From a virus, in the IMG/VR virus record IMGVR_UViG_3300005581_000045, positions 1 through 36,428 of that record: a stretch of DNA of 36,428 nt. One strand, written 5' to 3'. How positions within the stretch are numbered: the first letter of the stretch is position 1; every line of letters begins with the position of its first letter. Below are positions 6,153 through 35,810 of the stretch, piece after piece. Under the pieces are notes generated by a model that made no database searches, was not told the DNA's origin, and worked only from the letters and a program-made list of their open reading frames with translations. The translations under genes were made by a program, and so were the position numbers.

Positions 6153-6392
6153 TTAAGACTTTAATATCTTAATGATACGCTTTTTTTCCTGTTCTTGCAA
6201 CCAGTCCTTCTCCAAATCCCCGAAGTCTGGAGAATCTGCTAGTGCAGCGTCTACCAGTGCCTTGACCTGATATAGATCCTGTTTGGCATAGAAGGCAGTG
6301 AATCCATCGTTGTATGGACTCTGGCATTCTCTGGCCAAGGCATTAAGTTGATTTGAGATATCAGATACATCCCAACTTTTTCGGAATCCCAT
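6153..6392 (-). CDS. Small conserved phage protein, unknown function
   Basis: A 79-residue acidic protein with helical content; the segment ARECQSPYNDGFTAFYAKQD (residues about 20-39) looks like the conserved SPYNDGFT motif I associate with small proteins next to clamp-loader genes in marine T4-like phages. No membrane segment. Its stop lies 9 nt before the clamp-loader ATG and its start touches the co-chaperonin stop at 6392, so it is cotranscribed with replication genes. Function unknown. Confidence 0.7.
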   Translation of the reverse strand: MGFRKSWDVSDISNQLNALARECQSPYNDGFTAFYAKQDLYQVKALVDAALADSPDFGDLEKDWLQEQEKKRIIKILKS

Positions 6393-6814
6393 TAGTTAAA
6401 CTTCGACATGTTCCCAGGTAGGAAATCTTGCGGACTTATGTTCGTACTAGATCCATTAGAGAATTCTTGACCTATATAGAAGTCGTTGGGCTTTTGATCT
6501 GCGACAGCTATTACAGCAGAAACTTCGACTTTCTGGACTTCTTTGACGCTTTCACCGTCGTCGATTTTGATCTTGCGGGTCCAGCGACCGTGTTCAATCA
6601 GTATCCATTGACCAGGTTCAACATCTAGTTCACAGCTAGCACCTACTTTATAAACCTGTGCCCAACGTGGTTTTACTCCATGAGCCTTACCATCGTCGCT
6701 GTGGATTACTATACCTGCAGCAGTTGTCTGCTCTCCCATATCCATGCCATGCACAAGGATGTCTTGCGTCAAAGGGCGGACCTGCATTTTTCGTGCTTCG
6801 AATGATGTAGTCAT
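6392..6814 (-). CDS. GroES-like co-chaperonin (T4 gp31-like role)
   Basis: A 140-residue protein with a Cpn10 core: VRPLTQDILVHGMDMGEQTT (12-31), a mobile loop region ending in the GroEL-contacting AAGIVI (32-37), a WAQVYKVGAS strand (51-60), and VEPGQWILIEHGRW (65-78). Cpn10 caps the host GroEL folding chamber; T4 gp31 replaces GroES for capsid folding. The C-terminal about 40 residues (from DQKPNDFYIGQEF) extend beyond a standard Cpn10 and are predicted disordered. Sits between small unknown genes of the replication block. Confidence 0.8.
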   Translation of the reverse strand: MTTSFEARKMQVRPLTQDILVHGMDMGEQTTAAGIVIHSDDGKAHGVKPRWAQVYKVGASCELDVEPGQWILIEHGRWTRKIKIDDGESVKEVQKVEVSAVIAVADQKPNDFYIGQEFSNGSSTNISPQDFLPGNMSKFN

Positions 6815-26195: not shown

Positions 26196-26979
26196 CAACA
26201 AACTTATCCTGAACCGCACAGGGATTTGGATCACCGTGGAACACCGCCACTGAGCATTCTGGATCGGGTCTAACATCATTGCGAACGGTGGCGAATGTGC
26301 GTTTGCCGTTGTTCATTGTGAGTTCACTGCGATTGCGGATTTCCCATTTATAACTCATGATCCATTCTTTAGGCCAAAATTTTATCGCACCTTGGCACAA
26401 CTTCCAAATCCAATCCTGATCTCCCTGCAGTCGTTGTGCATCTCTGGGATTGTTTTGGAATTGACTCCAGATATGACTCTGTGTGCCATGATCCCAAGCC
26501 ATCACAGAGCTGTTTAGATATCGCCATGATGCATAGAATTTTCTGTTGAAATCATGTATGCCTATGAATTGTCCGGGACAATATACCGTGAGTTTGTCTA
26601 TGTTGGCATGGATGACTACATCTAAATCAAAATATAATATTCGGCCTTTCAAGGGTAGATTGGGATCAAACATATGTACCTTGTGCCACCATCCTCGAGG
26701 ATAGTTGGCATTGGGTTGGACGATGCTGCGAACACCTTGTATAGGATGTTGATCATCAGTGAGACACACCAGTTCATAAGGCACAGTAATATGCCTTGCT
26801 ATCATGTTGCGTAGTCTTTCTACGTATTCACGACTGTACTTATTACCAAACCTCACACACAGGATAGTGATCTTGGTATTGGGATCGAGATTGGCCACTA
26901 TGGCTGCATATTGATGTGCGGCTTTAGAGGCTTTGGCCTCTCGTTTAATCCTTTTACGTTCTTGTTTTGACAATTCCAT
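26179..26979 (-). CDS. Glycosyltransferase (GT-A type, DxD motif)
   Basis: A 266-residue cytosolic protein. ITILCVRFGNKYSREYVERL (37-56) and PYELVCLTDD (67-76) form the nucleotide-binding Rossmann part, ILYFDLDVVI (114-123) carries the DxD metal/sugar-nucleotide motif, and FHGDPNP (247-253) is the usual C-terminal His-containing motif of GT8-like enzymes. The 20 N-terminal residues are Lys/Arg-rich. It overlaps kdsA by 26 nt and is translated with it, so it probably transfers a sugar to LPS, DNA bases or a virion protein; sugar and acceptor unknown. Confidence 0.85.
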   Translation of the reverse strand: MELSKQERKRIKREAKASKAAHQYAAIVANLDPNTKITILCVRFGNKYSREYVERLRNMIARHITVPYELVCLTDDQHPIQGVRSIVQPNANYPRGWWHKVHMFDPNLPLKGRILYFDLDVVIHANIDKLTVYCPGQFIGIHDFNRKFYASWRYLNSSVMAWDHGTQSHIWSQFQNNPRDAQRLQGDQDWIWKLCQGAIKFWPKEWIMSYKWEIRNRSELTMNNGKRTFATVRNDVRPDPECSVAVFHGDPNPCAVQDKFVVDNWQ

Positions 26980-27784
26980 CTATGGCAACCAAGTCTTCTA
27001 ATAGCTGTTTTAACTGATTCAATGGAATCATGTTAGGTCCATCTGAGGGAGCTGAATCAGGATCTTCATGTGTTTCTACAAATACACCTGCAACACATCC
27101 TGTGGCTACAGCAGCCCTCGCCAGGTACGGGACCATGGTCCTATCGCCTCCTGACTTCGACCCCAATCCTCCAGGTTGTTGCACACTATGAGTGGCATCA
27201 AAGACCACTGGATAGCCGGTGCTTGCCATAATGGGTAGGCTGCGCATATCCACAACGAGATTATTGTATCCATGAGTGTATCCTCTTTCACATAACATGA
27301 TGCGTTCATTACCAGTTGAGGCAATCTTCGCTGCAACGTTTTTCATATCTTGGGGAGCAAGAAACTGACCTTTTTTAACATTGATAGCACACCCGGTAGC
27401 ACCTGCTGCCAACAACAGATCAGTCTGTCTGCAGAGAAATGCAGGTATTTGTATGACATCTATTCCTGCATCTGAGACCAATTGTGCCTGATAGCTTTCG
27501 TGTATGTCAGTGAGCACAGGTATGCCCAACGAATGTTTGACGCTGTTAAGGATTTTTAAACCATCGTCTATGCCGATGCCGCGTTGGGTACCTAGGCTGG
27601 ATCTATTGGCTTTATCAAAGCTGCTTTTATAGACTAAATCGATATCTAGATCATCGCAGATTTCTTTTATGACACCAGCGGTATGCTCTGCATGTGTTTG
27701 GCTTTCTATCTGGCAAGGACCAGCGATTAGGAATATTTTGTTTTCGTTGCTGGCAACGATCCTGTTTATGGCAAATATACGCAT
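26954..27784 (-). CDS. kdsA: 3-deoxy-8-phosphooctulonate (KDO-8-P) synthase
   Basis: A 276-residue protein (ATG 27784; a TTG at 27799 is less likely). Family motifs: LIAGPCQIES (19-28), VYKSSFDKANRSS (51-63), VLTDIHE, IQIPAFLCRQTDLL, AINVKKGQFLAP, and GYNNLVVDM with FDATHSVQQPGG. Joins arabinose-5-phosphate and phosphoenolpyruvate in the KDO path to lipid A-core. Cys24 in GPCQIES aligns with the metal-binding Cys of the metal-dependent class, not the Asn of the E. coli type, and the other metal ligands (His of THSVQ, Glu of FVETHEDP, Asp of PSDGPN) are there. As a phage gene it is a metabolic gene that could change host LPS or feed a phage glycan. Confidence 0.93.
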   Translation of the reverse strand: MRIFAINRIVASNENKIFLIAGPCQIESQTHAEHTAGVIKEICDDLDIDLVYKSSFDKANRSSLGTQRGIGIDDGLKILNSVKHSLGIPVLTDIHESYQAQLVSDAGIDVIQIPAFLCRQTDLLLAAGATGCAINVKKGQFLAPQDMKNVAAKIASTGNERIMLCERGYTHGYNNLVVDMRSLPIMASTGYPVVFDATHSVQQPGGLGSKSGGDRTMVPYLARAAVATGCVAGVFVETHEDPDSAPSDGPNMIPLNQLKQLLEDLVAIDGIVKTRT

Positions 27785-27792
27785 AAAACTAT

Positions 27793-27984
27793 TTACCAAT
27801 GCCTAATAACGTTGGCAATAATAAACAGGCAGGTGATCACATGGATGATGACCCAAAAAGTTTTTAAGAACAATGCTATCCTTGCTTCGCGTATGGACAA
27901 GATGGGAACATCCGGACGATCTTCGTCTGTCTGTCCCATTAGGTGCCCGGTCGCCCGGGCCCATATACGTTCAAAACTATTCAT
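27793..27984 (-). CDS. Small membrane protein
   Basis: A 63-residue protein with a basic N-terminus (MNSFERIWARATGHLMG), an acidic linker (QTDEDRPDVPI), and one hydrophobic segment at about 39-59 (LFLKTFWVIIHVITCLFIIA). Its ATG directly follows the QueD stop (TGAATG) and its stop lies 8 nt before kdsA, so it is part of that operon. Possibly a membrane anchor or inhibitor in surface-sugar modification; function unknown. Confidence 0.75.
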   Translation of the reverse strand: MNSFERIWARATGHLMGQTDEDRPDVPILSIREARIALFLKTFWVIIHVITCLFIIANVIRHW

Positions 27985-28666: not shown

Positions 28667-29249
28667 CAAATTCCACGTTATTTTTCTGCCATTCTTGAGG
28701 CATCTGCCAATCTCTGTGATTCCTTATAATGAATTTTTGATCGGAATGATGCATGAACACCCGATTGATCTGATAGATCCAATATGAATAATCTATAGCC
28801 TGCGATCCAGACTGTGCATAATTTTTTGTGCCCTTGTAGATATTATTAACAGCAGAGTTGATAGGATATAGATCGAACCCAATAAGTTCTATTTCAGAGT
28901 ATGCTAACTCAGCAGCCAACAACACAGCATACCCCCCACTGCCCCAATGATCGGGGTCGTCCTTTTTGTGTACGCCTTGGTACGGCAGCGCCGGCACAGT
29001 TTTGATATTTTTGTGTTTGCGTATCTTTCTGAAGTAATGAAACCATGAAGGTCTCACATAGATCAACGTGTTTTTGGTCTGAGAATTTTCCACAGCTTCA
29101 TCTGCCATTCGCCGATCACAGCAGATCAAATGATCAACAGTAACGTCTCTGTGAATAGCGTTGCAGCCAATCAGTGTGTCTGCGCTTAATGATTCTATGT
29201 CTATGGCTCTACGGCTTTCGCCATTACCAATAACCACAGCCCGAGACAT
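28656..29249 (-). CDS. Rossmann-like protein (DUF115/sialyltransferase-like), probable sugar-linked function
   Basis: Start ATG 29249 overlaps the fibre stop as TAATG; a longer start at 29276 is unlikely. 197 residues: SRAVVIGNGESRRAIDIESL (2-21), a nucleotide-binding-like GNGES loop, then LIGCNAIHRDVTVDHLICCD, WGSGGYAVLLAAELAYSEIE and LIGFDLY. The pattern GNGES...GCNA....D..., GxGGYAV...A and LxGFDLY resembles the DUF115/MptE-like and phage sialyltransferase-type folds. Adjacent to a fibre gene, it might glycosylate the fibre or produce a surface sugar; that is inference. Stop lies under the queD operon promoter. Confidence 0.65.
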   Translation of the reverse strand: MSRAVVIGNGESRRAIDIESLSADTLIGCNAIHRDVTVDHLICCDRRMADEAVENSQTKNTLIYVRPSWFHYFRKIRKHKNIKTVPALPYQGVHKKDDPDHWGSGGYAVLLAAELAYSEIELIGFDLYPINSAVNNIYKGTKNYAQSGSQAIDYSYWIYQINRVFMHHSDQKFIIRNHRDWQMPQEWQKNNVEFVAL

Positions 29250-30328
29250 TATTCGATTCTTCCGAATCCGCTCCAAAGACCAGGGCTACCTTGATTTACG
29301 CACACCCATCCTACGAATCTACCAGGAGACGGTTGGCTGTTCCATACGATGTCTCCAACAATAAAATGACCAGATGTAGGAGATTCTGTGTCACTGAGAT
29401 GTATTCTGTTATTGAATTTTATAGATCCATTAACATGTAATGCAGTTCTTGGGTCAGGATTATTTACATTTATTCCTAATATTCCTAATACCGTAACTTT
29501 ATTTGCGGGACTACCTAATACGATATTCCCGCCAGATTCGATTGAAATCCTTGCAGTGGCATCAGTGACAATATCAAAGTGGTTGCTGGCATACGTACCT
29601 ATATAGCCACGCACAGAATCTTTGGTACCTATTACTACTTCTACGCCGTCTTCGGCTATACTTAGAGCACTGTTGGGATCTTCTGTGCCCAATCCTAGTC
29701 TATTGGTTTCGCTGCTAAAGACCATGTGTTGGCCCACTCTCATACCACCTTCTACAATCAACCCTTTGAGATGGCCTACTTCTCGCAGACTGCTTTTGAC
29801 AACGGTGGGTCCTAGTTCTCGTTCGTCTATCAGCTTGATGTTGTTGACTGTGATGGTCTTGCCTCGGGCAAAATCTAAATTCTCCGACATAAAGAATCTG
29901 TCAGGATTGCTGGCGAATATAAATTGTTTGGTCTGTCCTCGACCAGCCCATAATAATCCTTTGCCTTCTATGCTGTCTCCGGAAAACGTTATGGGAATAT
30001 CTTTTTCGAATTTGATATCTGCTCGTAGTTCGTCTACTATCAGCACCTTGGTTTTAAGGGTGTTGCTAACGGTTAAATTTTCTATGTGCTCTACTGTGAG
30101 TGTTTTAGCATGCACTCCTTGATCGTCCACAGTCAGCTGTGTGGCTGTTGCAGAATCTTTGATACCTGTGCTGGCAAAGTTTTGCACAGTGCCTCCTTTG
30201 AGGTGATCGCCGGACAATGACCTAAAAGGTATTTTTCTGGCAATTTCCTTGGCATCAGGATGTGCTGTTTGTGCTAGGCCGTTGAGTTCGTCTCCGAGGG
30301 CGGCTAAAATATTATTAAGATTGCTCAT
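29249..30328 (-). CDS. Tail fibre / collar-type structural protein
   Basis: A 359-residue protein with ATG 30328 (MSNLNNILAAL), 8 codons inside a longer in-frame start. Residues about 40-150 are a beta-rich region (FRSLSGDHLKGGTVQNFAST), then LTVEHIENLTVSNTLKTKVL, repeated GLGTEDPNSALSIAEDG and GINVNNPDPRTALHVNGSI strands of fibre shaft type, and a C-terminal RFVGWVCVNQGSPGLWSGFG that resembles the end of phage short tail fibre or collar proteins. A late promoter core lies just upstream (30336-30343). Confidence 0.75.
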   Translation of the reverse strand: MSNLNNILAALGDELNGLAQTAHPDAKEIARKIPFRSLSGDHLKGGTVQNFASTGIKDSATATQLTVDDQGVHAKTLTVEHIENLTVSNTLKTKVLIVDELRADIKFEKDIPITFSGDSIEGKGLLWAGRGQTKQFIFASNPDRFFMSENLDFARGKTITVNNIKLIDERELGPTVVKSSLREVGHLKGLIVEGGMRVGQHMVFSSETNRLGLGTEDPNSALSIAEDGVEVVIGTKDSVRGYIGTYASNHFDIVTDATARISIESGGNIVLGSPANKVTVLGILGINVNNPDPRTALHVNGSIKFNNRIHLSDTESPTSGHFIVGDIVWNSQPSPGRFVGWVCVNQGSPGLWSGFGRIE

Positions 30329-30335
30329 AGTAATA

Positions 30336-30343
30336 TATTTATG
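30336..30343 (-). promoter_or_regulatory. T4-like late promoter of the 29249-30328 fibre gene
   Basis: Minus-strand CATAAATA about 8 nt before ATG 30328, immediately after the terminator at 30353-30376, so early transcription from the gene above stops and late transcription begins here. Confidence 0.5.
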
Positions 30344-30352
30344 CGCCAACAA

Positions 30353-30393: not shown

Positions 30394-31575
30394 TTATTGC
30401 GATCGAACCAAGATAGTATCTTCGTTGATTCTACCATTTAGCTTGATATCCACAGCCTTGATATCGTCTAAGAACTTGCGTAGCTGTACCTTGCTGGCGG
30501 CCTTGAACTCTTTGAACTGTTCTTCTGGCTTGCGCAGTGTTTTTTGCACGGATTTAACAGGATCAAACCCTGTAATACTGGTGCCTTTGACACTGAGCTC
30601 TTGGTACTCAGCTGCCACATACTTGCCTAGTTTGCGGGTTTTTGTATTAAACACCCATAGCTCTTTGGCACCTATAATATCCTGTGGATTCACGCTGACT
30701 AATTTCAGCTTGTCATCCTGCTTGAGATGTTTCATTTTAGCCACTAGTTTAGACTTATCAGTGGGTTTCTTGGCTCTAGGTTTCTTGTTGATTTTGGCTT
30801 CCTGTGCCAGCATGTCGCAGGCAGAGAGAATCTCGCTGTAGAACATAACGATTTTTTTGACCTGTGCTTTGGTCAAATGACTGTAGCCTTCTTTGAGCTG
30901 TTCGCATTTGCCTTCTTGCAGTTCCAAATATTCGTCATACTGTCGCTGATACCAGTTCTTGATGATCCTGGCATGTGCAGCCTTGACCTGCCGACCTCTA
31001 AGCAAATTCAACAGTTTGAATGCCTTGGGATCAAACGCTTCTGGATCTGCTGAAAACAATTCTATAGCATCTTCGATCTCTTCAGTCATTTTAAAAGCAG
31101 CTTCTTGGGTGCGTTCTTGTATGCTAGGTTGGATCACTACAGGTTTTAATTCTGCGCCTGGCTCTTGTTCCTGTTCGTCGTTCTTGCCTTCTTCGATGAT
31201 GTTGGCAATAGCCTTGCTGAGCCATTCTGCTGTGTTACGACCTTCGTTGAAGTCCGCTCTTACCGGAGGCATGCCACGCAATAGGTTGGCGGCAATGGCT
31301 CCGACTGTGATAGAACAGCGATTGTCTTTGGTATCTTTGAACTGTTTGATGGTGTCTTTGGCATAGCCATTCACGCTCATCCAATTTATAACCTTGGGTT
31401 TGAGATCTTTGCCACTGTGTTCTAATCGGTAGTAGCTCATGGCATTACGAAAGTGACGACTGAATTGGTCTGCGGTCATCGTTTCATAGCCGTCCCATTT
31501 CGGGCTTAAATCACGATTGACTTTAGCACGATGCTCAGCCACATGTTTTTTAGAAACGCGAGTACTTGTTGCCAA
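30394..31575 (-). CDS. Conserved phage protein, basic, unknown function
   Basis: A 393-residue soluble protein that starts with TTG at 31575 (AGGAG 7 nt upstream). Segments: YETMTADQFSRHFRNAMSYY (30-49), VINWMSVNGYAKDTIKQFKD, NRCSITVGAIAANLLRGMPP, a helical middle, then a Lys-rich region KINKKPRAKKPTDKSKLVAK and EELWVFNTKTRKLGKYVAAE-like strands. The basic, helical character could fit nucleic-acid binding or a virion role, but I see no catalytic motif. It has its own perfect sigma70 promoter and UUCG terminator, so it is a single-gene early unit. Unknown function. Confidence 0.75.
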   Translation of the reverse strand: MATSTRVSKKHVAEHRAKVNRDLSPKWDGYETMTADQFSRHFRNAMSYYRLEHSGKDLKPKVINWMSVNGYAKDTIKQFKDTKDNRCSITVGAIAANLLRGMPPVRADFNEGRNTAEWLSKAIANIIEEGKNDEQEQEPGAELKPVVIQPSIQERTQEAAFKMTEEIEDAIELFSADPEAFDPKAFKLLNLLRGRQVKAAHARIIKNWYQRQYDEYLELQEGKCEQLKEGYSHLTKAQVKKIVMFYSEILSACDMLAQEAKINKKPRAKKPTDKSKLVAKMKHLKQDDKLKLVSVNPQDIIGAKELWVFNTKTRKLGKYVAAEYQELSVKGTSITGFDPVKSVQKTLRKPEEQFKEFKAASKVQLRKFLDDIKAVDIKLNGRINEDTILVRSQ

Positions 31576-31606: not shown

Positions 31607-31635
31607 ATTATAGCACCAATTTAATATAATGTCAA
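31607..31635 (-). promoter_or_regulatory. Perfect-consensus sigma70 promoter before the 30394-31575 gene
   Basis: Minus-strand TTGACA (31630-31635), 17-nt spacer, TATAAT (31607-31612). The -35 is coded within the final Leu-Thr codons of the upstream gene. Predicted start about 31600, giving a 25-nt leader to TTG 31575. Confidence 0.85.
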
Positions 31636-31818
31636 CCGATCAATTTCAATGGTGTCACCATTGTCCAATTCTTGGAATATGGTCACAGCTTCTATGCCTT
31701 CTAGTTCCAAAGTATTTTTGGCTAATTCTTTGGCTTCTTTCAAACTATTGGTAGTATCTACCAACTCCTGATGCCCGACATCGTCTTCAGACCAGACCTC
31801 ATAAAGTTCCCAGGTCAT
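31621..31818 (-). CDS. Small acidic phage protein, unknown function
   Basis: A 65-residue protein (MTWELYEVWSEDDVGHQELV...) rich in Asp/Glu, no membrane segment, with alternating strand/helix pattern (a small alpha/beta fold like those of many early phage inhibitors). AAGGAGA lies about 13 nt before ATG 31818, in the end of the upstream gene. The last codons double as the -35 of the next promoter. Unrecognised. Confidence 0.65.
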   Translation of the reverse strand: MTWELYEVWSEDDVGHQELVDTTNSLKEAKELAKNTLELEGIEAVTIFQELDNGDTIEIDRLTLY

Positions 31819-31827
31819 AATAAATTA

Positions 31828-32385
31828 TTAATCTCCTTTTTCAAAGTTTTCCCAATCTCCACCAGGCGCTACGGCCCAGCCAAGACGTTGAAGATCATTC
31901 CGGATCTCGTCGGTAATGCAACCTTCAGGAACATATTTACGCTGATCATATAAATTTCCAGCTTCTTCGTCTTGATAATCATTTCGGATACCCGAACAAT
32001 ACCAATCGATGTAATCACCTTGTTGTCGCATATCAGCTACAATTCCGCCAGCATACCTCCAAGAACATGACCATTCCTCACCTTTAAGTACAGGAATGAC
32101 TTCTAGCCTAATGAATCCATTATTACACATTGCCGCATATAAGTTTTGAGCATATGCATCGTGGGAACGAACTTTCTCCAAAATCCAATCAGTGGTTAAT
32201 AGATCGTACTCCACGTTGTTGATTCTGCTTTTGAGATCGTTAAACTTATTATTATGTTCTTCTAAGACTTGTTCAAACCAATCAAGATAATTTTCATTGA
32301 TAGGTTCGCCTTTTTCTTCCTGTCGTTTGACATATCCCTCTTTTTGGAAGGTATGTCGATCAGGGCTTTTTGAAACTTTATCCAT
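31828..32385 (-). CDS. Conserved phage protein, unknown function
   Basis: A 185-residue protein: charged helix with coiled-coil tendency (NYLDWFEQVLEEHNNKFNDL, about 28-47), EVIPVLKGEEWSCSWRYAGG, VADMRQQGDYIDWYCSGIRN and VPEGCITDEIRNDLQRLGW. The GDYIDWYCSGI and EGxxTDEIRxDLxxLGW patterns recur in marine phage proteins I recall, function unknown. Start overlaps the upstream stop by 8 nt, so coupled translation is likely. Confidence 0.7.
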   Translation of the reverse strand: MDKVSKSPDRHTFQKEGYVKRQEEKGEPINENYLDWFEQVLEEHNNKFNDLKSRINNVEYDLLTTDWILEKVRSHDAYAQNLYAAMCNNGFIRLEVIPVLKGEEWSCSWRYAGGIVADMRQQGDYIDWYCSGIRNDYQDEEAGNLYDQRKYVPEGCITDEIRNDLQRLGWAVAPGGDWENFEKGD

Positions 32386-33628
32386 GTGATTTTACAATTC
32401 TATTCATAGATACTTCTGGATCCCATTCTTTGCAATACTTTTTACGATTAGCACGACCTTCTTTAGTATCAGGATCATAGTCGATCCACGAAAACTCTGT
32501 GCCATCACATTCGGGGCAATGACTGTTGTAGTCGTCATCTTCACACATATCGCTACGCATGCCTACCCAACCGCATTCTTTGTTATCACAGATAGCATCC
32601 GCTGGTTCTGGTGGTTGATTGACCCATGAGCCTGTGTCCCAATTATAACCACTCCAGGTTTGCACACCGGAGATTGTTTTGAACTTACCGTATTCCCATT
32701 CACCGAATTCTGTGCCGTTCCAATATGCTGTACCGTATGTGGTGCCATAGCTTTTCCAAACACAACTATACCAACCTTCTATAGTTGGTTTAGTTTTTGC
32801 AAATTTAAATTTAGGAGTTGATTCCCATGTGCTTGGACTTGTACCAATTGGAGGATGTCCCCAATCCTTTTCTCCAGGCTCGTAGCGTTTAAATCCGCCT
32901 TCATCGTCAGTGAGCCGAACCATGATCATGTCTGAACTCTTGCCGTCAGTGCTACCACCGTTGTTGTCGATTTCTTCACCGTCATACATCACTGAGTTCA
33001 CAATCTCTTCACCATCTACTTCATCGTAGTAGAGTTCTAGTTTTTCAATATCAAACGGTGCTCGAAGTTCAATTTCACCTTCAAAGAACGTGCCTTTTTC
33101 GTTGCTTCTACCAATAAACACCACTTCACCTTTTTTACGACTACCAATCCAGACTTCATCTTGACAACTCCAAGCAGGACTGTCTTCAACATCGTCGCAG
33201 TCATCAAAACTTTTTTCAAAAACTGTATTACCGTTTTCATCTTCGATCTGTATGTGTCCTGCATTGCGGCTCACACCATTCACATGTGCCATATCGTCAC
33301 ATTCATACCAGGACCCCGGTCTAAACGGTAATTTTTCTAGATCCAGTCCCATTTCTTCTTGCACAATGTCTTCATCGCTCCATGCTATTTCTGTCAGATC
33401 CACTGAGTTTTTCACGCAGTAGTTCCAGACTTTTTTATCCACGGTACCCATGACTATTTCACCACCATAGCCCCACAATGAAATTTTATAGGTGCGTGGT
33501 GTAAACTTAAGAACTTCTATGAGTTTTTGTTGTTCTGCTAGATGCTGTGCGGCTAATTCTTCAGCAGTTGGCTCCGGAGCATCGCCGGGAGCGAATGGCC
33601 ATGATCCTTTGGGGTTAGCGGTTGTCAT
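32378..33628 (-). CDS. Large early phage protein with C-terminal zinc ribbon, unknown function
   Basis: ATG 33628 (MTTANPKGSWPF) follows AAGGAGA and overlaps the upstream stop by ATGA; a TTG two codons earlier is less likely. 416 residues, acidic. The N-terminal part has YKISLWGYGGEIVMGTVDKK, the middle has CDDMAHVNGVSRNAGHIQIE, repeated Trp/Gly/Tyr-rich strands (WYSCVWKSYGTTYGTAYWNG), and the C-terminus a zinc ribbon: CDNKEC...GWVG then HCPEC (about 350-385). The two Cys pairs suggest zinc binding. Nothing enzymatic recognised. Part of the sigma70-driven operon 35198-31621. Confidence 0.7.
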   Translation of the reverse strand: MTTANPKGSWPFAPGDAPEPTAEELAAQHLAEQQKLIEVLKFTPRTYKISLWGYGGEIVMGTVDKKVWNYCVKNSVDLTEIAWSDEDIVQEEMGLDLEKLPFRPGSWYECDDMAHVNGVSRNAGHIQIEDENGNTVFEKSFDDCDDVEDSPAWSCQDEVWIGSRKKGEVVFIGRSNEKGTFFEGEIELRAPFDIEKLELYYDEVDGEEIVNSVMYDGEEIDNNGGSTDGKSSDMIMVRLTDDEGGFKRYEPGEKDWGHPPIGTSPSTWESTPKFKFAKTKPTIEGWYSCVWKSYGTTYGTAYWNGTEFGEWEYGKFKTISGVQTWSGYNWDTGSWVNQPPEPADAICDNKECGWVGMRSDMCEDDDYNSHCPECDGTEFSWIDYDPDTKEGRANRKKYCKEWDPEVSMNRIVKSHG

Positions 33629-34008
33629 ACACAATCTCCTTGTTCAGCAATTTTAGAAGCAGCTTTTGCGGTTGAATTGTTTTTGGATCGAAATTTCTTA
33701 ACATCATCCACCGCAGATTTCAGTGTTTCTGCATAGTTAATAGCCTGCTGTTCGGTCATGCACACAGTGGTTTCGCAGTCCACATACCCCTTTGACAACA
33801 GAGTCCAGATATGTTGCCAACGTGTCTTTGACCAAAAGTTGGTTTTCACCGTGGTGTAGATAGTAACGGTCACTTCATGATCGTCAGATTCAATCCAGAC
33901 ATTATGGCTGTGATCATCATCTCCGCAATTACAAACCACCTTGTAGACTCTGCTGTCTCCCCAATCGTGGGTCTTCAAAATACCTTCTGCTGGAATCTGT
34001 GCTTTCAT
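33625..34008 (-). CDS. Small phage protein with Cys-His cluster, unknown function
   Basis: A 127-residue protein. VCNCGDDDHSHNVWIESDDH (residues 25-44) places Cys and His residues close together, a possible metal site; VTVTIYTTVKTNFW (47-60) is a beta strand pair; the C-terminal half is helical and basic. It overlaps neighbours by 4 nt at each end (ATGA style). No family recognised. Confidence 0.65.
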   Translation of the reverse strand: MKAQIPAEGILKTHDWGDSRVYKVVCNCGDDDHSHNVWIESDDHEVTVTIYTTVKTNFWSKTRWQHIWTLLSKGYVDCETTVCMTEQQAINYAETLKSAVDDVKKFRSKNNSTAKAASKIAEQGDCV

Positions 34009-34226
34009 TGTACGGGCAACCTATCAAATGTTTTGACCTGCGAGCGACTGGCTGAAATAGCATCGACCATTCGATCGTAGTCGTCGGGATCCATGGCAGA
34101 TCGATAGATGCTCAGAGCCTGGGTCATCATCACTGCGGCTACTTCCAAGGCACCATGCACACCCACCATGTGATCAGTGAACTCAATATAATTGTCATAG
34201 AGCTGTTGCATTTTATCTTTGCTCAT
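34005..34226 (-). CDS. Small helical phage protein, unknown function
   Basis: A 73-residue helical protein: YDNYIEFTDHMVGVHGALEV, AAVMMTQALSIYRSAM, YDRMVDAISASRSQVKTFDR. No membrane segment is certain, though residues about 21-37 are fairly hydrophobic. Overlaps the 34213-34392 gene by 14 nt and the next gene by 4 nt. Unrecognised. Confidence 0.65.
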   Translation of the reverse strand: MSKDKMQQLYDNYIEFTDHMVGVHGALEVAAVMMTQALSIYRSAMDPDDYDRMVDAISASRSQVKTFDRLPVQ

Positions 34227-34392
34227 TTATTTTTTTCCTGTGTTTATATTCTCGTTTGATCCACCATTTATAAGTGTTCCAGTACTGTTTAATTGTAGCA
34301 GGTTCATCTCCGTAGGTCAATCTCTCCTCGCGATTCTCCATCCAAAGTCGTTGGACCCAAAGTCTAAATCTTGAAGGAGAGTTTAGGTCCAT
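34213..34392 (-). CDS. 59-residue basic Trp-rich phage protein
   Basis: A short gene with ATG 34392 and stop TAA 34213-34215. Protein: MDLNSPSRFRLWVQRLW, MENREERLTYGDEPA, TIKQYWNTYKWWIKREYKHR. Five Trp and many Arg/Lys suggest nucleic acid or RNA polymerase contact, but this is inference. It overlaps the upstream gene by 10 nt and the downstream by 14 nt, consistent with operon packing; AAGGAG lies just before the ATG. Confidence 0.65.
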   Translation of the reverse strand: MDLNSPSRFRLWVQRLWMENREERLTYGDEPATIKQYWNTYKWWIKREYKHRKKINEQR

Positions 34393-35198
34393 AGGCTTTC
34401 CCGAATTTTAATTAAACGAATCATCATTGCTTCATCTTCATCATTGTAGGTTTTTTCAATCTCTTGACTCTTATCCAAGGCAATTTTACACATCTCTGCT
34501 TCTTCTGGTGTTTTGTCGTCCATATCCAAAAGATGGTAACCTTTCTCACGGCGCATGTCACAGTACGCACTCCACCCGCTGGCATCATGAACATCTGGAC
34601 GTTTTGGATAAACTTCCTTCCACCATATGTAAAGCTCTAGAATTTCTTTGGCTGCTTTGGCTTGATATGTAGGCTCTGCTAGATGCTTTTCACCTTCGTC
34701 TAAGAACTCTTCGTTGGTCAGTGTCATTGCCCATTCTAGATAAGCAATACCTGCTTCTGGACAACGCCAATTGCGATACCAACGGCGCCACCATGGATAA
34801 TCGTATTTTTTCTTATCCTCATCACTCCATAAACAGTGGTGCCAAGCCTGTTCTATCTCAACAAAATCCACAAGCTCGTTAAAGAGACAAGGCAGAAAGC
34901 GATTGCCCACATCACGCCAATCACCTGGCGCAATATCTCTGGGATGGGCAGTAAGGGCATGACTGCGAGTAACCCAACGATTATTAATGTAATACCTAAT
35001 ATCATTTATTCTTTCCGGTATCCAACACCATACACCTTGGATTTTATCCAACCCTTCTTCAGCGATCCACCAACGGATTGGATATTGGTCTTTAGCGGCC
35101 TTTTCCCATTCTCGCCATTCTTTTCCTGTGCCACACTTTAGTTTAGTGGTCCCACGGATCCAATCAGCAAACGGGGAACAGGTCCAATAATTTCTCAT
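34383..35198 (-). CDS. Trp-rich conserved phage protein, unknown function
   Basis: A 271-residue protein remarkably rich in Trp (WTCSPFADWIRG, IRWWIAEEGLDK, YPWWRRWYRNWRC, ELYIWWKEVYPKRPDVHDAS), with DPRDIAPGDW-type loops and HASGWSAYCDMRREKGYH-like motifs. No signal or membrane span. ATG 35198 follows AGAAGGA; the promoter at 35235-35263 is 30 nt upstream. It is first in the operon of unknown early genes. The C-terminal 40 residues are acidic helix. Function unknown. Confidence 0.75.
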   Translation of the reverse strand: MRNYWTCSPFADWIRGTTKLKCGTGKEWREWEKAAKDQYPIRWWIAEEGLDKIQGVWCWIPERINDIRYYINNRWVTRSHALTAHPRDIAPGDWRDVGNRFLPCLFNELVDFVEIEQAWHHCLWSDEDKKKYDYPWWRRWYRNWRCPEAGIAYLEWAMTLTNEEFLDEGEKHLAEPTYQAKAAKEILELYIWWKEVYPKRPDVHDASGWSAYCDMRREKGYHLLDMDDKTPEEAEMCKIALDKSQEIEKTYNDEDEAMMIRLIKIRESLWT

Positions 35199-35234
35199 GT
35201 AATTCCTTCTCAGACTTAATAGTCGAACACTTTA

Positions 35235-35263
35235 ATTATACGATCTTTTCAAGAACCTGTCAA
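35235..35263 (-). promoter_or_regulatory. Perfect-consensus sigma70 promoter of the unknown early operon
   Basis: Minus-strand TTGACA (35258-35263), 17-nt spacer, TATAAT (35235-35240) in the 83-nt gap 35199-35281. Predicted start near 35228, leader about 30 nt. It should drive 35198 to 31621 as one early transcript. Confidence 0.85.
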
Positions 35264-35281
35264 TAACGATTAGAAAATGAC

Positions 35282-35665
35282 TTAGATTTTTCGGTGATAC
35301 CCTGCCAAATACAACATCATACTGTACTGCTCGTAGGCTTTTTTCACAGACTCGTGTGTCATACGAAAGTGTGATTCCTCACGTTCTTTGCTCATCAGCA
35401 ATTCGAACATATCGGTATAGCCCTGACTGTGAGGATTATTATTAAAGAAGCGTTTTTCCATATCCACCAAAGTCCTTAATCTGCTCTCTGGAATCTGCAG
35501 AGTATAGAGTTTCTCAGTTTGATATTCTACGACATCGTTTCGTATGACATCAGCACGTTCGGGATCTGTAAAGAATCTAGGGGGATGATATCTAGCATGT
35601 CGTCCAGTGTCATTGACCACTCGAACATCGTAGTTTTCACAAAATTTTTTGAGATTATCTTCCAC
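35282..35665 (-). CDS. Conserved phage protein, unknown function
   Basis: A 127-residue protein starting with GTG at 35665 (GCAGG 5 nt upstream). Mixed helix and charged: RYHPPRFFTDPERADVIRND, VVEYQTEKLYTLQIPESRLR, and a C-terminal KKAYEQYSMMLYLAGYHRK. No membrane span. It overlaps the upstream basic protein by 11 nt. Unrecognised. Confidence 0.65.
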   Translation of the reverse strand: MEDNLKKFCENYDVRVVNDTGRHARYHPPRFFTDPERADVIRNDVVEYQTEKLYTLQIPESRLRTLVDMEKRFFNNNPHSQGYTDMFELLMSKEREESHFRMTHESVKKAYEQYSMMLYLAGYHRKI

Positions 35666-35810
35666 GACCTGCAGACTTCTTGACGGGTTTGTTTACATTG
35701 ACCTGGCTACCATGTATGCCGTGATTAGCATCTGTGATGTTTTTGTTGTTGTTTTGTTTTTGATTCTGTTTCTTTTTAAGTAATGCGGCTTTGAGTAGGT
35801 CTGTTTTCAT
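35655..35810 (-). CDS. 51-residue Lys/Asn/Gln-rich basic protein
   Basis: ATG at 35810 in an ATGA overlap with the thyX stop (35807-35809), stop TAA 35655-35657. Sequence: MKTDLLKAALLKKKQNQKQ, NNNKNITDANHGIHG, SQVNVNKPVKKSAGRGR. Basic, disordered, ending in a GRGR tail. Likely nucleic-acid binding; function unknown. Its in-frame start and AGGAGC site just upstream support it. Confidence 0.6.
   Translation of the reverse strand: MKTDLLKAALLKKKQNQKQNNNKNITDANHGIHGSQVNVNKPVKKSAGRGR

Follow-up and report, generated by a model that had tools for sequence, protein, structure and literature searches.

On the minus strand of the IMG/VR virus record IMGVR_UViG_3300005581_000045, between positions 35198 and 31621, lies a real and uncharacterised operon of seven packed open reading frames (ORFs), named here after the lengths of their products: W271, p59, p73, p127b, p416, p185 and p65. 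The window, which is the whole virus record of 36,428 bases, probably represents one piece of a large tailed phage's genome, because its genes include thyX, a T4-type clamp loader, PhoH, a tail fibre and a QueD-like gene. Our preferred reading, which we hold tentatively, is that the operon is read by host RNA polymerase and encodes intracellular helper proteins of the replication phase, widespread in large uncultured tailed phages. The evidence consists of a recurring gene order, the constancy and wide spread of the tryptophan (Trp)-rich W271 and of p185, and a putative sigma-70-type promoter kept in front of W271 in relatives. On this evidence, widespread phage equipment is a better account than counter-defence. 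The features are as follows.

35219-35289, minus strand: extended W271 promoter (putative), with TTGACA at 35263-35258 and TATAAT at 35240-35235; its spacer and the bases directly downstream are conserved
34383-35198, minus strand: W271, 271 residues, Trp-rich, predicted all-helical, widespread in large uncultured phages
34213-34392, minus strand: p59, 59 residues, basic and Trp-rich
34005-34226, minus strand: p73, 73 residues
33625-34008, minus strand: p127b, 127 residues, with a CxCG...H motif
32378-33628, minus strand: p416, 416 residues, accessory and very acidic, with two cysteine (Cys) pairs in its C-terminal part
31828-32385, minus strand: p185, 185 residues, widespread
31621-31818, minus strand: p65, 65 residues, acidic
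31607-31635, minus strand: second perfect promoter (putative), with TG before the -10 hexamer, serving p393
30394-31575, minus strand: p393, 393 residues, basic, phrog_11903, a downstream partner outside the seven
35282-35665, minus strand: p127a, a conserved gene directly upstream of the W271 promoter
35655-35810, minus strand: basic ORF of 51 residues between thyX and p127a

Gene order, W271 and p185

The seven ORFs overlap by 4-14 bases or are parted by a single 9-base gap, and each has same-order homologues on other viral contigs (p416 in few), the contigs bearing relatives of the operon reaching 383 kb. The first-pass annotation had drawn at least six tightly coupled genes from 35198 to 31621, and these are borne out as seven. 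In relatives the genes usually run thyX - p127a - promoter - W271 - (p59) - (p73) - p127b - (p416) - p185 - p65 - promoter - p393 - fibre-like genes. Its core, W271 - p127b - p185 - p393, recurs across different contexts; among the exceptions are L117 and L273, where p127b precedes W271, and L294, where it follows p185. Near W271 we found, over 73 loci, p393 in 46, p127b in 39, p185 in 37, thyX in 35, p127a in 34, p73 in 30, p65 in 29, p59 in 20 and p416 in six; 67 further loci gave p393 in 26, p185 in 25, p127b in 23 and p416 labelled in none. All these counts are lower bounds because many loci are cut by contig ends, and they, like the promoter counts by context below, refer to loci with distinct W271 proteins. 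The reverse view, from 80 loci collected through p185, each with at most 3 kb on either side, showed p393 in 60, W271 in 58, p127b in 55, p59 in 38 and p416 in six. When 45 loci with distinct p185 and both flanks were considered, W271 was present in 34.

The W271 set was hand-picked from profile-search loci (52 of 80, 51 of them distinct), the other 28 being dropped as contigs already in the single-sequence search or as look-alikes, without a check of each. Two of the 74 sequences of set A7 (L008 and L009) and the same two of the 23 of set A1 were left out, as were seven of the 55 new and seven of the 18 old rows of set A8 and one of the 38 of set A10 (L115).

A single-sequence search placed W271 at 53 loci, and profile searches confirmed it in at least 508 and at least 554 viral stretches, two sets that overlap to an unspecified degree. 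p185 was confirmed in at least 595. For W271, 25 of 28 larger records carry a single copy: all ten contigs reached through W271 and 15 of the 18 chosen through p185, which were searched over their whole length (11 of 14 when the four already known as W271 contigs are dropped). W271 is hence common but not universal, since three of the 18 p185 contigs lack it. One of these, L181 (G020, 357 kb), with p185 but no W271 match, offers a natural comparison for the contribution of W271. Searches of phage records used an INPHARED copy of 50,697 records, and there two W271 members had no match by tblastn at expectation values (E) of 0.01 and 1. Among 84,980 species genomes two matched, both short contigs of metagenome-assembled genomes, the scan depending on exact short patterns; no host can be named.

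Results of the alignment of 72 W271 sequences showed a mean column identity of 73%, with 13 of 21 Trp positions invariant. The C-terminus is nearly fixed (MMIRLIKIRxSLWT), and its last three residues, LWT, are invariant. Compared with the clamp loader over 21 pairs of seven genomes, two of which are identical in both proteins, W271 identity was higher in nine, lower in nine and equal in three, so that by sequence identity W271 appears about as conserved as the clamp loader. Depending on the contig, W271 has as neighbours thyX, DNA ligase, a ClpP-like protease, or nrdA at about 3 kb. In three loci (L043, L049 and L038) W271 is of a different class (62-63% identity), yet p185 (75-77%) is as close to that of the window as in others; so are, in L043 and L049, thyX (80-81%) and p393 (71-78%). 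W271 alleles may thus have been exchanged between phages.

Remote-homology and structure searches of the kind that the first-pass annotation had suggested gave W271 no family or fold assignment. The AlphaFold2 model of W271 is all helical (predicted local distance difference test score, pLDDT, 80.5; predicted template modelling score, pTM, 0.62), with residues 76-100 poor. Its best structural match, arfaptin (Z 6.5 over 113 residues, 3.8 A), falls within the helical background, and a PDB profile search gave nothing at E 5. Against Pfam, PHROG and NCBIfam, nothing exceeded a curated cut-off or fell below E 0.001. Over the 72 members, the best PHROGs value was E 0.015 and the best Pfam value E 0.0015 (MAP65_ASE1, in three of 72), and the W271 of the window scored 13.4 bits with MAP65_ASE1 at a cut-off of 26.9. 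Two proteins of uncultured Caudovirales phages in BFVD, A0A6J7WVM3 and A0A6J5M301, match the W271 model by Foldseek (E 8.8e-14 and 3.6e-7; 33% and 25% identity) and, judging from the models, probably belong to the same family. They differ in being shorter (235 and 188 residues; TM-scores of 0.42 and 0.44 by W271 length), and their function is likewise uncharacterised.

For p185, the model is good (pLDDT 83.1, pTM 0.80), and among the 40 PDB chains compared with it none reached Z 2. BFVD gave nothing below E 3 for this model, and a PDB profile search nothing at E 5. The C-terminal half of p185 (residues 75-172) aligns with WAX24383.1 of the Bradyrhizobium prophage ppBeUSDA76-2 (hhalign probability 98%), which differs in having 136 residues without the N-terminal half of p185; the p185 search reached it just at E 0.02. 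WAX24383.1, which sits a few kilobases from a NinB-like gene and a DUF968 gene, had no other match in the 50,697 records at E 0.01.

As to composition, Trp accounts for 4.9% of the residues in the seven proteins (59 of 1196) and for 1.3% (144 of 11,094) in the other ORFs of the window, called mechanically at 60 residues or more. The unusual Trp content that the first-pass annotation had reported for the 271- and 59-residue proteins was confirmed (7.7% and 8.5%), and the 73-residue protein has none. The term "tryptophan-rich" was not met in a literature search aimed at Trp-rich phage proteins, as judged from listings with the openings of abstracts. That annotation had also called the proteins basic; this mostly did not hold, as six of the seven are acidic, with net charges, in gene order, of -10, +6, -4, -3, -41, -14 and -13. 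Basic proteins outside the seven are those of the 51-residue ORF (+10) and p393 (+16).

The promoters of W271 and p393

The pattern TTGACA-17-TATAAT occurs in the window with all twelve hexamer bases (12/12) at two sites alone, 35263-35235 and 31635-31607. Both had been taken in the first pass as promoters of the operon; they are indeed perfect, but the second stands at the operon's end and serves p393. The site in front of W271 has the sequence features expected of a sigma-70-type promoter, a -35 TTGACA and a -10 TATAAT 16-18 bases apart and upstream of a gene, and is a putative promoter of this type. In eight large related contigs the perfect pattern was found 63 times versus once for a reversed control, although the 63 sites are not independent, since G001 and G006, and likewise G002 and G005, have most of their sites in common. 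Looser matches (at least 9/12) were not clearly above chance (24 found, 17.9 +/- 4.3 expected).

Results showed that, before W271, a 12/12 site is present in 53 of 56 loci with the thyX/p127a context and at least 11/12 in 55. For contexts other than this and the ClpP/ligase one considered below, the figures are 5 and 10 of 31. At least 11/12 was reached before p393 in 68 of 70 loci, and by 94 of 3000 random 150-base stretches of the same loci, those promoters included. Upstream of thyX (n = 19), p185 (20), p65 (15) and p127a (17) there was no match above 9/12. We then compared 40 promoter-bearing loci by identity band; here hexamer identities are uninformative because loci were selected by the presence of the promoter. 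Identity was 0.59-0.83 in the spacer, 0.64-0.93 downstream and 0.41-0.70 at fourfold sites of W271, and in every band the fourfold sites were less conserved than either the spacer or the 16 bases following the -10. These comparisons point to a conserved host-type (sigma-70-type) promoter, as predicted from sequence. Upstream of the -35, the inverted repeat TGATTC...GAATCA was considered as an operator in a few loci and rejected, because its identity (0.42-0.72) is at the level of fourfold sites.

A sequence model of the promoter element scored 39-62 bits at W271 in five of 11 records and 18 bits in two more (G002 and G005). No other site in the 11 records exceeded 19.4 bits among at most 150 candidates scored per record, five of the 11 having more; as the model was built from the same or near records, only this lack of further strong copies is informative. 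The T4-type late promoter TATAAATA was below its reversed control in all eight contigs, and therefore no late class was defined.

To see what such promoters precede, 16 of the 63 perfect sites were fetched and ten genes behind them scanned. These include a primase, a deoxynucleoside monophosphate (dNMP) kinase, a phosphoesterase, an HNH endonuclease and a p393 relative, the rest being of unknown function or unmatched. In G007 a perfect promoter is followed by a p393 relative and then a head-tail adaptor gene (phrog_211), and Pseudomonas phage PA5oct has the same arrangement behind an 11/12 site. Given these two cases and the mixed genes behind perfect promoters, having a consensus promoter does not tell an early gene from a late one here, and expression at once on infection, which the first pass had read from these promoters as likely, does not follow from them alone. 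The p393 relative of PA5oct, EST35_0192, belongs like p393 to phrog_11903 (35.9% identity) and its promoter has a spacing of 18. PA5oct differs in having no W271 match, and the phiM12 relative of p393 differs in being without such a promoter. A published RNA sequencing study of PA5oct reportedly exists.

Smaller members and neighbouring genes

No enzyme had been recognised in the operon in the first pass, and we likewise found no match over curated cut-offs in Pfam or NCBIfam, and none in PADLOC, for any of the seven proteins. By tblastn against INPHARED, p73 and a p127b homologue had no match at E 1 and p416 none at E 0.01, and the best for p65 was just E 0.3. A homologue of p59 is matched in a single phage record by the 53-residue WJE88041.1 of Phage C48C1 (Kyanoviridae; 45.5% over 74%, E 2e-4), and in the 25 genes around it profiles of W271, p185 and p127b found nothing below E 0.05. 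PDB profile searches gave chance-like best values for p127b (0.29) and p416 (0.05) and nothing at E 5 for p393. Weak matches were obtained for p65 with phrog_2124 (unknown function, E 6e-4) and Pfam GA-like (23.4 bits, just under the cut-off of 25), while p393 belongs to phrog_11903 with E 5e-63 over profile positions 36-381 of 383.

The Cys motifs proposed earlier stand in part. The Cys/histidine (His) cluster of the 127-residue protein has C26, C28 and H33 invariant in 16 sequences, but the second His varies. For the candidate zinc ribbon of the 416-residue protein, the two pairs C-x4-C and C-x2-C near the C-terminus are found in three of four sequences; they are kept in two homologues (85-86% identity) but absent from a third, shorter one. 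p416 is the sole patchy member of the operon and is accessory (six of 73 and none of 67 W271 loci; six of 80 p185 loci, a set overlapping the first).

Two variable slots in the otherwise mostly fixed order are a possible place for accessory genes. One, between p127b and p185, holds p416 (32378-33628) or a gene of 176 residues; the other, upstream of W271 in relatives, holds radical S-adenosylmethionine (SAM), halogenase or cytidylyltransferase-like genes. Several different radical SAM genes lie upstream of the operon in the first 8 kb of L219 and L222. Flavin-dependent tryptophan halogenase family genes (PF04820, with GGGTAGW and WIWRIP motifs) are found upstream of W271 in five of 73 loci (L017:4389-5927, L021:4425-5927, L089:3014-4519, L098:24-1529 and L100:2390-3895), in L017 and L021 directly before the W271 promoter. 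They occur in eight of 14 records searched, including the five loci's own; G004 has four and the window none. A tie between the halogenase and the Trp-rich W271 is speculative.

Elsewhere in the window, a sugar-acid synthase gene at 26954-27799 (phrog_5045, DAHP (3-deoxy-D-arabino-heptulosonate 7-phosphate) synthase-like) resembles KdsA by eye, and a gene resembling KdsB by eye lies upstream of W271 in six of 73 loci; on sequence, a phage-borne pathway for Kdo (3-deoxy-D-manno-octulosonic acid) is possible. A GroES-like/head morphogenesis gene (phrog_931, phrog_3188) is present at 6392-6814. The 51-residue ORF had no homologue among 53 related loci and is perhaps not a gene. No Rfam family or tRNA was detected in the window.

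Function of the operon

On our preferred reading, host RNA polymerase would transcribe the operon from its dedicated strong sigma-70-type promoter, so that p127b, p185 and p65 would be made along with W271, and accessory genes such as p416 would occupy slots in the same operon. The products would be soluble helpers inside the infected cell in the replication phase. The helical W271 would be held by its conserved Trp residues and nearly fixed C-terminus to one conserved partner, which may be a component of the phage DNA or nucleotide machinery or a host component. Promoter use, intracellular role, binding function and replication phase are what we infer here.

Several observations weigh against this reading. 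In the ClpP/ligase context, assigned by similarity to the genes of L020, a 12/12 site precedes W271 in one of 53 loci and at least 11/12 in three; the promoter is mostly missing there and therefore not a fixed feature of the family. p59, p73, p127b, p185 and p65 are each missing beside W271 in many loci, partly by early locus ends, and among p185 contigs one of 357 kb (L181) is among the three without W271. Pairwise identity correlates weakly between operon genes (rho 0.16 for W271 with p185; 0.03-0.66 over all pairs), and therefore a single complex is not required; co-inheritance, considered by this gene-by-gene comparison, was mostly weak and was not retained. Genes downstream of p393 (29249-30352) look structural and fibre-like. 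For this phage we found no data on expression, interactions, virion content or knockouts.

Alternatively, W271 and its partners might appear directly after injection and attach to a host machine, be it RNA polymerase, ribosome, nucleoid or division, so as to divert it early in infection. A strong host-type promoter kept in relatives, small and mostly acidic proteins without an enzyme match, and one primase and one dNMP kinase among the ten first genes behind other perfect promoters all speak for such a takeover. In G007 and PA5oct, however, the same type of promoter precedes a p393 relative and then a head-tail adaptor gene, and here it precedes p393 and then fibre-like genes; W271 also varies little over many phages, which we would consider unusual for a host-binding effector; we regard takeover as rather unlikely. 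The p393 neighbourhood, with fibre-like genes here and a head-tail adaptor gene in the two other phages, would suit an operon with a role in morphogenesis or one whose products are internal or ejected proteins. Yet W271 adjoins thyX, ligase, protease or nrdA genes, and the p393 relative of PA5oct is without the electrospray tandem mass spectrometry (ESI-MS/MS) note carried by its next three neighbours, although such notes are not a clean guide because one "structural" neighbour matches a dNMP kinase. A virion or assembly role seems improbable to us.

Counter-defence, which the first-pass annotation had named beside takeover when it called the operon its best candidate for either, is very unlikely. 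DNA mimics are strongly acidic, and p416 is very acidic and patchy, with p65 strongly acidic too. Counter-defence genes, though, are usually accessory and patchy in distribution, whereas W271 and p185 evolve slowly and occur widely, p416 alone being patchy. The silence of PADLOC on the seven also speaks against it but says little, because PADLOC covers defence and holds no anti-defence set. The operon resembles equipment standard to these phages more closely than a weapon against host defences. By weight, intracellular helpers of the replication phase come before host takeover, and little is left for virion parts or counter-defence.

With slightly less assurance than for the helper reading itself, we suggest that a vast group of uncultured large phages has W271 and p185 as hallmark proteins, which would do an essential job for which there is no known family or solved fold. 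W271 would be tuned in one lineage by its dedicated extended promoter, and the fold of p185 may be new. W271 is retained in hundreds of viral contigs with a constancy like that of the clamp loader, yet the INPHARED copy has no match. PA5oct, which is grown on Pseudomonas, has a p393 relative and the same kind of promoter, so that one piece is testable at once. Once found, the function of W271 would extend to a large group of phages in the environment.

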